DNA of 64,000 nucleotides from Candidatus Tectomicrobia bacterium (GTDB lineage Bacteria > UBA8248). Position 1 is the stretch's first letter. Each line of letters begins with the position of its first letter. The stretch covers positions 54,535-118,534 of the forward strand of contig JACPUR010000037.1 in NCBI GenBank assembly GCA_016192135.1. Reading direction: 5' to 3'. Below are positions 35,211 to 41,423 of the stretch, piece by piece. A program made the translations under genes and the position numbers. The notes under the pieces are model-generated. The model was not told the DNA's origin, ran no database searches, and saw only the letters and a program-made list of their open reading frames with translations.

Positions 35211-35840
35211 ATGGCAGAGCCCGAGATCGCGGCCCAGATCGACACGCAGGAAGAGCTCCGCGCCCACTACGGCGAGGTCAACTACCGCGCCCGCCTGAAG
35301 CAGCTTCCCAAGCTGGAGAAGCACAGCAAGCGCTTCATCTCCCTCTCCCCCTTCTTCGTCCTCTCGACCGCGAGCGGCAAGGGCACCGACGCCTCCCCCC
35401 GGGGCGACGCCCCCGGCTTCGTGAAGATCCTGGACGACCGAACCCTCGCCATCCCCGACCGCCCCGGCAACAACCGGGTGGATTCCTTCTCCAACATCCT
35501 CGAGAACCCCAGCGTCGGCCTCCTCTTCCTCGTCCCCGGCATCAACGAGACCCTGCGCGTGAACGGCAGGGCCCGCATCACCACCGACCCGGCCGTCCTC
35601 GCCGGGCACGCCTTCCAGGGCAAGCTCCCGCGCTCGGTCATGCTGGTCGAGGTGGAGGAGGTCTTCCTCCACTGCGCCAAGGCCCTCATGCGCTCGAAGC
35701 TCTGGGACCCCGCCCGCCACGTGGACCGCAAGGACTTCCCCTCCATGGGCGAGTGCCTGGCCGAGCAGATCGGCGGCGGCCTCGATCCCAGGAAGGTCGA
35801 GGAGGAGGTCTTCGAGGGCTACCGGAAAAATCTGTACTGA
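35211..35840 (+). CDS. Pyridoxamine 5'-phosphate oxidase-family FMN-binding protein
   Basis: A 209-residue split-barrel flavoprotein of the PPOX type (MSMEG_1061-like). FFVLSTASGKGTDASPRGD and IPDRPGNNRVDSFSNILENP are typical of this group. VGLLFLVPGINETLRVNGRA follows. These proteins bind FMN or F420 and reduce or bind diverse small molecules; the substrate is unknown. GAGGAAAGGGAGG precedes the ATG. A strong terminator follows directly, so it is probably monocistronic. Confidence 0.82.
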   Translation: MAEPEIAAQIDTQEELRAHYGEVNYRARLKQLPKLEKHSKRFISLSPFFVLSTASGKGTDASPRGDAPGFVKILDDRTLAIPDRPGNNRVDSFSNILENPSVGLLFLVPGINETLRVNGRARITTDPAVLAGHAFQGKLPRSVMLVEVEEVFLHCAKALMRSKLWDPARHVDRKDFPSMGECLAEQIGGGLDPRKVEEEVFEGYRKNLY

Positions 35841-37353: not shown

Positions 37354-38529
37354 ATGAGCCAAGTGAGATTGCTGGTCGGCACCCGCAAGGGCGCCTTCGT
37401 CCTGACCTCGGACGGGAAGCGCGGGCGCTGGGACGTGGCCGGCCCCCACTTCGGGGGCTGGGAGATCTACCACATGAAGGGCTCCCCGGCCGACCCGGAC
37501 CGACTGTACGCCTCCCAGACGAGCGCCTGGTTCGGCCAGATCATCCAGCGCTCGAGCGACGGCGGGAAGACCTGGGAGACGCCCGGCGGGGAGAAGATGC
37601 CCGACCCCTACGGCCCGCCCGCCGGGGTGAGCAATAAGTTCGTCTACGACACCTCCCCCGAGACCGGCAAGCCCCTCACCACGCACCAGTGGTACGACGG
37701 CACGCAGCACCCGTGGGAGTTCAAGCGGGTCTGGCACCTCGAGCCCTCCCTGACCGATCCGGACACGGTGTACGCCGGCGTGGAGGACGCTTCCCTCTTC
37801 CGCACGGCGGACGGCGGCCGCTCATGGCAGGAACTCCCCGGGCTGCGCGGCACGCAGGGGAACCTCTGGGCGCCGGGAGCGGGGGGCATGTGCTTGCACA
37901 CCATCCTGCTCGATCCGGGCAACCCCAAGCGGATATTCATCGCCATCTCGGCCGCGGGCGCCTTCCGGTCGGACGACGCCGGCCGGACGTGGCGGCCGGT
38001 GAACCGCGGGTTGAAGTCTCAATACATCCCAAACCCCGAGGCGGAGGTGGGCCACTGCGTCCACCGCATCGCCATGCACCCCTCTCGCCCCGGCGTCCTC
38101 TTCATGCAGAAACACTGGGACGTGATGCGCAGCGACGACGCGGGCGATTCGTGGCGGGAGGTGAGCGGGGATCTGCCCACCGACTTCGGTTTCCCCATCG
38201 AGGTCCACGCCCACGAGCCCGAGACCGTCTACGTCGTCCCCATCAAGAGCGACTCCGAGCACTATCCCCCCGAGGGCAAGCTGCGCGTCTACCGCAGCCG
38301 CTCGGGCGGGAACGAATGGGAGCCCCTCGCGAAGGGCCTGCCTCAGCGCGACTGCTACGTGAACGTGCTGCGCGACGCGATGGCCGTGGACAGGCTCGAC
38401 CCCTGCGGCGTCTACTTCGGAACGACCGGCGGGCAGGTCTACGCCTCGGCGGACGGCGGAGACAACTGGGCGCCCATCGTCCGGGACCTCCCGGCCGTGC
38501 TCTCGGTCGAAGCCCAGACGCTGCCGTGA
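37354..38529 (+). CDS. BNR/Asp-box repeat beta-propeller protein (sialidase-like fold)
   Basis: A 391-residue beta-propeller with five Asp-box motifs: [32 protein letters not shown] and SADGGDNW. It has no signal peptide, so it is probably cytoplasmic. Proteins of this group are often annotated exo-alpha-sialidase or glycosyl hydrolase, but the catalytic residues of true sialidases were not identified, so activity is unproven. GGAAGGAA precedes the ATG. Similar proteins tend, as I recall, to be encoded beside a MoaD/ThiS-like protein; here one is found two genes downstream. Confidence 0.85.
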
Positions 38530-38570
38530 CCAATATGAAGATGGCGGGATGAATGAAGGAGGGAAAATCC

Positions 38571-39056
38571 ATGCAGCAGTTCACTCCATGCCTGTGGTTC
38601 GATGACCAAGCCGAAGAAGCGGCGAACTTTCATGTATCGGTTTTCAAGAACTCCAAAATCGGGAGCGTTTCTTACTATGGCGACGCGGGCGCGAATGTCT
38701 CCGGAAGGCCGAAGGGGACCGTGATGACGGTGACGTTCCAGCTCGACGGGCAAGAATTCATGGCGCTGAACGGCGGCCCGGTGTTCAAGTTTTCGCCTGC
38801 CATATCCTTCATGGTGAACCGCGAGACGCAGCAGGAAGTAGACCGATTGTGGGAAAAACTCTCCGAGGGCGGAGAAAAAGAGCAATGCGGCTGGCTGAAG
38901 GACAAGTATGGGGTGTCCTGGCAGATCATTCCAACGGAGCTGGGCGAGATGATGCAGGACGGGGACCCGGAGAAGTCCGAAAGGGTCATGAAGGCGCTGC
39001 TTCAGATGAATAAGATTGACATCGAAAGCTTAAAGCAAGCGTGCGAACAACGATAA
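38571..39056 (+). CDS. VOC-family protein (PhnB-like, 3-demethylubiquinone methyltransferase-like fold)
   Basis: A 161-residue VOC protein: [20 protein letters not shown] at the N-terminus, [18 protein letters not shown], and [19 protein letters not shown] near the C-terminus, the usual PhnB-like signature. A strong AAGGAGGGA ribosome-binding site fixes ATG 38571. Its base composition is visibly lower in GC and its third positions are mixed, unlike both neighbours, which suggests recent acquisition. The stop overlaps the next start (TAATG), so it is coupled to the MoaD-like gene. Confidence 0.87.
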
Positions 39057-39358
39057 TGGCCATGATCCGCGTCGTCCTCCCCGAGCACCTGCGCACCCTC
39101 GCGCGCGCCGCGGGCGAGGAGGTGGAGGTCGAGGCCGAGCGGGCCACGCTGGGCGCGCTCCTCGACGCCGTCGAGGCCCGCTACCCGGCCCTGCGCGGCA
39201 CCATCCGCGACCACGCCACACTGAAGCGGCGTCCCTTCGTGCGCTTCTTCGCCTGCGGGGAGGACCTCTCCCACGAGCCCCCGGAGGCGCCCCTGCCCGA
39301 TGCCGTGGTCTCCGGGGCCGAGCCCTTCCTCATCGTGGGGGCCCTCGCGGGGGGGTAG
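39056..39358 (+). CDS. MoaD/ThiS-family sulfur-carrier-like protein
   Basis: A 100-residue ubiquitin-fold protein ending in the hallmark Gly-Gly ([10 protein letters not shown]), the site of thiocarboxylate formation in MoaD and ThiS. The N-terminus [20 protein letters not shown] and the central [20 protein letters not shown] fit the family. ATG 39056 overlaps the VOC stop; a second ATG at 39062 is an alternative. No MoaE, MoeB or ThiF is nearby, so its partner is unknown. High-GC coding like the BNR gene, unlike the VOC gene between them. Confidence 0.8.
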
Positions 39359-39457: not shown

Positions 39458-39718
39458 CGTCCGATGTGAAATTGCACATATGGCAAACCGGCTCATCGGC
39501 AATCTGCCAATTCGGCAAAATGACAATCCCGCCAAAATACCAATAACTCGTACTCTAATAGATATATGGGATGCGAGCGTCTCAGGGAGGAATTATCCGG
39601 CCTATATGCCGGCGAAATGAAAGTGGATGGCATTTTTATTGCTATTTCCGGTTTTGCTGCCTTTGCTCCCTCCGCGTCTCCCGGATCCCAACGCACCCCT
39701 GGCAAGAAGGAGAGAAAC

Positions 39719-39799
39719 ATGATTCTTCGCGTTGACCCTCTGACTGTCATCGCGCTGCTCGGCGTCGCGGTGGCGCTTGTGGCGGTAAGCGCCCGCTAG
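39719..39799 (+). CDS. 26-residue single-helix microprotein, copy 1
   Basis: A tiny ORF of 27 codons including the stop. A good ribosome-binding site AAGGAGAG lies about six bases before the ATG. The peptide starts MILRVD, continues as an uninterrupted hydrophobic helix (VIALLGVAVALVAVSA) and ends in Arg. It should insert in the membrane with charged residues at both ends. A second ORF of identical length and closely related sequence lies 54 bases downstream. No known microprotein family was recognised. Confidence 0.6.
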   Translation: MILRVDPLTVIALLGVAVALVAVSAR

Positions 39800-39853
39800 G
39801 AAACCCCGGCCGCTCTCGCGGAAGCCGGGCGGCCCGCAAAAGGGAGGACGACC

Positions 39854-39934
39854 ATGATACTGCGCGTTGATGCATTGCTCGTCATCGCCGTGCTCGGCAT
39901 CGCGGTCGCCATCGTGGCACTGGCCACGCGCTAG
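39854..39934 (+). CDS. 26-residue single-helix microprotein, copy 2
   Basis: Same length and design as the preceding ORF, starting MILRVD, with hydrophobic VIAVLGIAVAIVALAT and a final Arg. A GGGAGG ribosome-binding site lies six bases upstream. By hand alignment 18 of 26 residues are identical and the rest are mostly conservative (Leu/Val, Val/Ile, Ser/Ala). About eight codons differ only silently. This pattern suggests selection on the protein, making both ORFs likely real. Confidence 0.6.
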   Translation: MILRVDALLVIAVLGIAVAIVALATR

Positions 39935-40250
39935 TAAGGCCGCCCGCCTTCGGATTTGAGGGCCGGCCTCGCCTCGATGAAGAGGTGAGGGGGGGGTGCT
40001 TCGCGCCGAAAAGCCCTCGCCGCGGAGCGGCCCGCCCCCGGCGCTCTTGGGCCGCGCGGCGGGCACCGGATTCCCGCCGGATTCGCCTGGTGCCGGAGGC
40101 GGACTCGACCTCCCCTAATGGGCTTGCTCCCGGAATCTGGGCGGAGGCCGATCCTTGCAAATCTTCCAGCTCATGTAAGATTTGCAAGGATATTTGCGGA
40201 TTTTTCGGTTTATCCTTGTATTTCTTCCATCAGATGGATAAAATACAAGG
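39935..40250. other. Intergenic region before the DUF4143 ATPase with two matched hairpins
   Basis: About 316 bases without a gene. The first 200 are GC-rich. The last 100 are AT-rich and carry two 41-base dyads (listed separately). A weak promoter (TTGCGG at 40194-40199, 17 bases, TGTATT) may sit between or within the dyads. Confidence 0.5.
40151..40191. repeat. Hairpin/dyad 1 before DUF4143 ATPase
   Basis: Perfect 15-bp inverted repeat: ATCCTTGCAAATCTT (40151-40165) and AAGATTTGCAAGGAT (40177-40191) with an 11-base loop. It is the same total length (41 bases) as dyad 2, and its outer seven pairs are identical to that dyad. Confidence 0.85.
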
Positions 40251-40252
40251 AT
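40212..40252. repeat. Hairpin/dyad 2 overlapping the ATPase start
   Basis: 12-bp arms ATCCTTGTATTT (40212-40223) and AAATACAAGGAT (40241-40252), with five further inner pairs beyond two mismatches. The right arm includes the first two bases of the ATPase ATG. Compared with dyad 1, stem positions 8, 10 and 11 differ on both strands so that pairing is kept. Confidence 0.85.
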
Positions 40253-41423
40253 GATAGACCGGCGGATCAGGGAAAAGGTCAAGCAAGCTCTGGCCTATCA
40301 GGCCGCCGTGGCCATCATCGGGCCGCGGCAAGTGGGGAAAACCACCCTCGCCCTCGAAATCGGGAGCGAGACGGGCGCGACCTATCTCGATCTCGAAGAC
40401 CGGACGGATCGGGAAAAGCTGAGCGACCCGAAGCTGTTCCTCGAACGCTACGAGGACAGCCTCGTCATCCTGGACGAGATCCACCGCGTGCCGGAATTGT
40501 TCCAGGACCTAAGAGGCATCATCGACCGGGGGCGCCGCAAGGGAAAACGGACCGGGCGCTTCCTCGTGCTCGGCTCGGCCTCCATCGACCTGTTGCGGCA
40601 GTCCGGCGAAAGCCTGGCGGGCCGGATCGCCTACGTGGACATGGGGCCGCTCGATATTCTCGAAGTGCCCGCAGGCGCGGACGCCCTCAATACGCTCTGG
40701 GTGCGCGGCGGGTATCCCGACAGCTACCTCGCCCCGGACGACGAGCGGAGCCTTCAAATCCGCAAGGATTTCATCCGAACCTACCTCCAGCGGGACGTAG
40801 GGTTGTTCGCGCCGCGCCTTCCGGCGGAGACGCTGGAGCGGCTCTGGACGATGCTGGCGCACAGCCAGGGCAGTCTTCTCAATGCGTCACGCCTGGCGAG
40901 CGGCCTCGGCGTCAGCACCCAGACCGTGACGCGCTATATCGATCTTCTCGCGGACCTTTTGCTTGTGCGCCGCCTGCCGCCCTTCCGCGCCAATATCGGC
41001 AAGCGCCTGGTGAAGTCGCCCAAGACCTATGTGCGGGACAGCGGCCTGGTCCACGCCCTGCTCGGCATTGCGGATCACAACGCCCTGGCGGGCCACCCCG
41101 TGGTCGGCGCGAGTTGGGAGGGCTTCGTGATCGAGAATCTTCTGGCGGCGGCCCCGCCCCGGACCATGGCGAGCTTTTACCGCACCTCCGCGGGCGCGGA
41201 AATCGACCTCGTGCTCGAGCTTCCGGGCAAGCGCGGCCTCTGGGCCATCGAGATCAAGCGCGGACTCTCGGCGAGCCCCGGCAAGGGATTCCATAACGCC
41301 CGGGAGGACCTGAAGCCGAAGCGATCCTTCGTCGTCTACTCGGGCGAGGAACACCACCCGGCGGCCAAGGGCGTCGAGGCCATCGGCCTCCGCGAAATGG
41401 CGTCGCTGCTGGCGGAGGGGTGA
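40251..41423 (+). CDS. AAA-type ATP-binding protein with DUF4143 domain
   Basis: A 390-residue ATPase. The N-terminal AAA_14-type domain has Walker A IGPRQVGKTTL and Walker B SLVILDEIHRVPE. The arginine-rich middle has LVLGSASIDLLRQSGESLAG. The C-terminal DUF4143 part includes an HTH-like stretch (NASRLASGLGVSTQTVTRY) and a PD-(D/E)XK-like end (AGAEIDLVLELPGKRGLWAI with EIKRG). These widespread genes have no established function. The ATG at 40251 overlaps dyad 2 and has no spaced ribosome-binding site, so expression may be controlled there. A tRNA-Leu gene follows on the other strand. Confidence 0.85.
   Translation: MIDRRIREKVKQALAYQAAVAIIGPRQVGKTTLALEIGSETGATYLDLEDRTDREKLSDPKLFLERYEDSLVILDEIHRVPELFQDLRGIIDRGRRKGKRTGRFLVLGSASIDLLRQSGESLAGRIAYVDMGPLDILEVPAGADALNTLWVRGGYPDSYLAPDDERSLQIRKDFIRTYLQRDVGLFAPRLPAETLERLWTMLAHSQGSLLNASRLASGLGVSTQTVTRYIDLLADLLLVRRLPPFRANIGKRLVKSPKTYVRDSGLVHALLGIADHNALAGHPVVGASWEGFVIENLLAAAPPRTMASFYRTSAGAEIDLVLELPGKRGLWAIEIKRGLSASPGKGFHNAREDLKPKRSFVVYSGEEHHPAAKGVEAIGLREMASLLAEG

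Follow-up and report, generated by a model that had tools for sequence, protein, structure and literature searches.

A tandem pair of putative 26-residue single-helix membrane microproteins with a possible toxin-like role beside tRNA-Leu

Single-span regulatory microproteins such as AcrZ, KdpF, CydX, MgtS, and MgrB consist of one hydrophobic helix, about 20 residues long, between short polar ends, and small regulatory subunits usually adjoin the gene of their target or are conserved along with it. The Ldr and Ibs toxins occur as clustered paralogs. Tandem duplication of small hydrophobic open reading frames (ORFs) was the search criterion that led to ZorO, a toxin of 29 aa (PMC8309996; PMC3919570). 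Together with OrzO/OrzP, ZorO/ZorP form a type I toxin-antitoxin system of Escherichia coli O157:H7 that is tandemly duplicated and not present in all strains, and every zor gene is accompanied by a divergent sRNA having 18 to 19 nt of complementarity (PMC3919570). Traits of the Fst/Ldr toxins include an APXXXGXXX or PXXXGC motif and paired C-terminal cationic residues (PMC8309996).

Within a 64,000-nucleotide window (the whole stretch of “Candidatus Tectomicrobia” DNA that was analyzed), we studied two consecutive small ORFs, twins A and B. The coordinates, lengths, and sequences given for them in an earlier note on this DNA proved exact on recheck, and each ORF has, as described there, a good ribosome-binding site of its own (located by reading):

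39707..39712, + strand: Shine-Dalgarno sequence AAGGAG of twin A, 6 nt 5' of the ATG
39719..39799, + strand: twin A ORF, 26 aa, MILRVDPLTVIALLGVAVALVAVSAR, TAG stop
39842..39847, + strand: Shine-Dalgarno sequence GGGAGG of twin B, 6 nt 5' of the ATG
39854..39934, + strand: twin B ORF, 26 aa, MILRVDALLVIAVLGIAVAIVALATR, TAG stop

The stop of twin A and the start of twin B are separated by 54 bases. The ORFs lie in a common frame, 135 nt from start to start, with no further stop in between, an arrangement that may have arisen by chance.

Alignment of the peptides confirmed that 18/26 residues are identical, and the “about eight” silent codon differences reported earlier were counted as exactly 8, alongside 8 residue-changing differences and 10 identical sense codons plus the identical TAG stop. 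The description of the remaining changes as conservative holds in the helix core (L/V, V/I, L/I, V/L), but P7A, T9L, S24A, and A25T do not fit it. Among 628 same-strand neighboring small-ORF pairs of similar length within the window, the twin pair is an extreme outlier, with 69% identity versus 27% for the next pair and a local score of 85 versus 51 for the runner-up. A BLAST search of the intergenic region against itself aligned the copies at 75.8% over 66 bp (E value, 1.9e-9); the DNA similarity ends at the ORF borders, and none was detected outside the ORFs. The 23 nucleotide differences are distributed 9/2/12 over codon positions 1/2/3, and NG86 estimates for the pair were a dN of 0.21 and a dS of 1.00 (dN/dS, about 0.21). 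When 23 random substitutions were simulated in twin A, at least 18 residues were kept with no stop in 0.23% of trials (P, ∼0.002), and agreement between the copies was higher in the + strand frame than in every other frame. Based on the outlier rank, the codon-position pattern, the dN/dS ratio, the simulation, and the ending of similarity at the ORF borders, duplication followed by amino acid constraint in the + frame, the history that the earlier note had proposed, is well supported as judged from one pair of ∼78 bases.

Residues 7 to 25 form a hydrophobic core bounded by R4/D6 and R26, with a mean hydropathy of 2.43 in twin A and 2.91 in twin B (GRAVY, 1.85 and 2.20, respectively). Most simply, each twin is predicted to form one membrane-spanning helix. 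At 26 aa each and with this core hydropathy, the twins have the small (<60 aa), hydrophobic, one-helix form used as a criterion for type I toxins. The core substitutions between the copies, at positions 9, 13, 16, 20, and 23, all fall within 80 degrees on a helical wheel (resultant, 0.88 at 100 degrees per residue), and the opposite face (A12, G15, A19, and A22) is invariant. Equally concentrated arrangements numbered 8/4368, with a best-fitting angle of 102 degrees per residue; the resulting P value of 0.002 is post hoc, the tested range having been picked after the data were seen, and it becomes 0.10 when the end positions are included. The pattern is suggestive of one packed face and one lipid face.

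Several described systems come close to the twins. Like ZorO/ZorP, they form a tandem locus of small single-helix hydrophobic proteins (about 29 aa there and 26 here) with patchy occurrence; unlike them, no sequence similarity was established, and OrzO/OrzP-like complementarity was not found in the window. With Ldr/Rdl, Ibs/Sib, and Fst, the twins share the length class and the hydrophobic helix, as well as the paralog clustering of Ldr and Ibs. They differ from this group in that no antisense RNA was found and in that the Fst/Ldr superfamily motif (APXXXGXXX/PXXXGC) and the paired C-terminal cationic residues are, by reading, absent from both peptides. AcrZ, KdpF, CydX, MgtS, and MgrB resemble the twins in having one hydrophobic helix with short polar ends, but the twins have no adjacent target complex and no family model match, and they are laid out in tandem.

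Only two copies, twins A and B, occur in the entire genome. Sequence and profile searches found no homolog in the 17 other family genomes, and a profile search of 386 genomes found none in about 370 further genomes; in these searches, relatives of such short peptides may escape detection below roughly 60% identity. Weak profile matches in five distant genomes (E values, 2.7e-4 to 0.025) were rejected because most of them are membrane-spanning parts of longer proteins (transporter permeases, for example) or fall in long open frames rather than small genes; two of the weak matches, on the minus strand, were judged in a frame other than the matching one. Scanning two peptide patterns across a genome contig collection confirmed nothing, and the four matches to the tandem MI.R.D pattern there proved to be simple repeats and CRISPR-like spacer-repeat arrays. 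No relatives of the twins came from viral contigs, phages, or plasmids. The peptides had no match in Pfam, PHROGs, or PADLOC up to an E value of 10 and a single meaningless match in NCBIfam (E value, 1.9), and none of these four libraries linked them to a known toxin family model, in keeping with the earlier expectation that such peptides are missed. A possible degenerate third copy upstream (MKVDGIFIAISGFAAFA, 39617) was discarded, its score being reached by 12% of shuffles against twin A and 1.3% against twin B. The twins are an orphan, lineage-specific microprotein family of a known general kind.

Eight neighboring genes have a Pfam match, and none of them encodes a membrane complex; the families represented (PNPOx, MarR, glyoxalase, Vps10/BNR, 3-dmu-9, ThiS, and AAA_14/DUF4143) are of soluble type. 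The Vps10/BNR-repeat gene (37354-38529) and the ThiS-like gene (39062-39358) are kept as a pair in five family members, where they abut or overlap and where no twins were found nearby. In the window, a 3-dmu-9-type (PhnB-like) gene of lower GC content (38553-39056), with no family counterpart at the limit used, is interposed between them. The features that frame the segment are as follows:

35211-35840: PNPOx gene
40088..40141, - strand: degenerate tRNA-Leu 3' half, aligned with the intact tRNA-Leu; right border of the accessory segment
41506-41591, - strand: intact tRNA-Leu(CAA), beyond the AAA_14/DUF4143 gene

In a congeneric relative (G002), a terminator and a tRNA-Leu 3' half come directly after the PNPOx gene, and we therefore consider the 35.9- to 40.1-kb segment to be missing at that place. 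The G002 contig stops there, breaking within that tRNA-Leu 3' half (L064, about 100-160) at the position that corresponds to the window. The segment bearing the twins is accordingly lacking at matching places in the nearest relative. Given this absence, the inserted 3-dmu-9-type gene, and the adjoining tRNA-Leu remnant, sequence comparison indicates that the setting of the twins is a species-specific accessory mosaic region beside tRNA-Leu.

The DNA upstream of twin A has a GC content of 49 to 51%, versus about 68% in the surroundings. Two further elements, one upstream of twin A and one around twin B, may bear on expression:

39478..39546, + strand: array with a period of about 8 bp (NNNGSCAA), with CAA at 39484, 39500, 39508, 39516, 39524, 39533, and 39541
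39821-39834 / 39938-39951, + strand: GC-rich 14-nt arms, 93% complementary

The octamer array showed a lag-16 match of 57% (P, 0.0002; any lag, P, 0.003), has no second occurrence in the genome at the tested length, and could serve as an operator array or belong to the leader. In the mRNA, the 14-nt arms would bracket twin B together with its ribosome-binding site, a pairing of weak significance; local RNA folding gave an unexceptional z of +0.93 for unit A and a weak z of -1.6 for unit B. We also noted a very stable GC-rich hairpin cluster at 39960-40066, 3' of twin B and without a U-tract (fold of 39930-40070; z, -2.1). Rfam gave no match at the locus. The only minus-strand promoter-like site there is weak (39750-39722; 9/12, with 0.4 such sites expected by chance) and, by reading, has no equivalent in twin B. 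Nonlocal complementarity in the window was at chance level, with no stretch of at least 14 nt, and a short-complementarity sRNA partner of the ZorO/OrzO type was rejected as not above chance within the window.

Our preferred, though tentative, reading is that the twins may be real, recently acquired or born paralogs for single-span inner-membrane peptides on one short transcript, most likely acting like tandem type I toxins. The two ORFs would be cotranscribed, each with its separate ribosome-binding site, and each peptide would insert in the membrane as one alpha-helix. The small-residue face (A12, G15, A19, and A22) would pack on another helix, giving homo- or hetero-oligomers, and the opposite face (9, 13, 16, 20, and 23) would meet lipid and drift among I, V, and L. 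Synthesis would normally be limited, perhaps by an overlapping cis-antisense RNA or by mRNA structure; on a rise in synthesis, the helices would oligomerize and the membrane would be depolarized or slowed, as for ZorO/ZorP. We favor toxin-like action because of the anatomy, the tandem duplication, the patchy distribution, the island-like setting, and the lack of an adjacent membrane complex. Because we saw no antitoxin RNA and the peptides lack known toxin motifs, we stop short of assigning the twins, with their putative toxicity, to the type I toxins as a family. A more elaborate version, in which the two diverged helices represent a new lineage-specific family that assembles as heteromers in the membrane to act as a toxin, pore, or stress effector, carried on a species-specific tRNA-Leu island under octamer-repeat operator control, appears unlikely.

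Almost as likely as toxin-like action is a regulatory role at an unlinked membrane protein. The twins could plausibly be nontoxic membrane proteins that bind an unlinked transporter, kinase, or oxidase and tune its activity or stability, in the manner of AcrZ, KdpF, CydX, MgtS, or MgrB, with the copies serving as dose or specificity variants. The single-helix anatomy, the protein-level constraint, and the conserved small-residue face, which fits helix-helix contact, are all consistent with this role, as is the finding of no antitoxin in the promoter, Rfam, and window complementarity searches. Against it, the neighbors are of soluble-type families and close relatives lack the peptides, so neither target adjacency nor conservation along with a target was seen. 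The transporter-regulator option raised in the earlier note is weakened for the related reason that no membrane complex occurs among the eight Pfam-matched neighbors. Rather doubtful, in our judgment, is an origin of the twins as recent orphan or de novo mini-genes with no settled function, translated hydrophobic peptides that were duplicated once and are mildly constrained for membrane tolerance. The accessory, mosaic location and the absence of homologs anywhere searched would be expected of such genes, but the replacement rate is low although silent sites are saturated (dS, about 1), which implies that constraint has acted for some time, and both start codons, Shine-Dalgarno sites, and stops have been kept.

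The in-frame layout with its open 18-codon linker, together with the border formed by the tRNA-Leu remnant, would also suit decayed mobile-element remnants or a split helix-linker-helix ancestor, with a single TAG between in-frame A and B. We regard this origin as improbable: the in-frame layout has a substantial probability of arising by chance, the copies share the codon position and identity of their TAG stop and have a Shine-Dalgarno site each, and the constraint pattern is unlike decay. More improbable still is a reading without a + strand protein, in which the duplicated stretch either underlies an antisense ORF (39602-40066, minus strand, 154 aa) or forms a structured RNA. That ORF is open through both copies, but GC-rich DNA commonly contains long antisense ORFs. 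The copies agree at 12/26 positions in the minus frame versus 18/26 on the + strand, on which ground we rejected it as a real gene; by reading, no purine-rich ribosome-binding site lies 5' of its GTG, and the Rfam result speaks against a structured RNA.

If translated, the twins would be a duplicated pair of very short membrane genes in which constraint at the protein level can be measured, and the poorly charted one-helix microproteins would gain a family. Their lineage is sparsely sampled, and gene finders would pass over such genes. They also offer a small, easily tested case, consisting of two 26-residue peptides with a defined conserved face.

Beyond the tRNA-Leu remnant, we observed two 41-nt inverted repeats (40151-40191 and 40212-40252), which are 71% alike and whose arms are 94% and 90% self-complementary. 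A leader peptide (attenuator) role for the twins was rejected, the next + strand gene starting 317 nt downstream, past the remnant and both repeats. This AAA_14/DUF4143 gene (40251-41423) is flanked by the remnant and the intact tRNA-Leu(CAA), like attachment-site copies. Both inverted repeats lie directly upstream of it, the second abutting its start codon, and they are possible autoregulatory operators of the gene.
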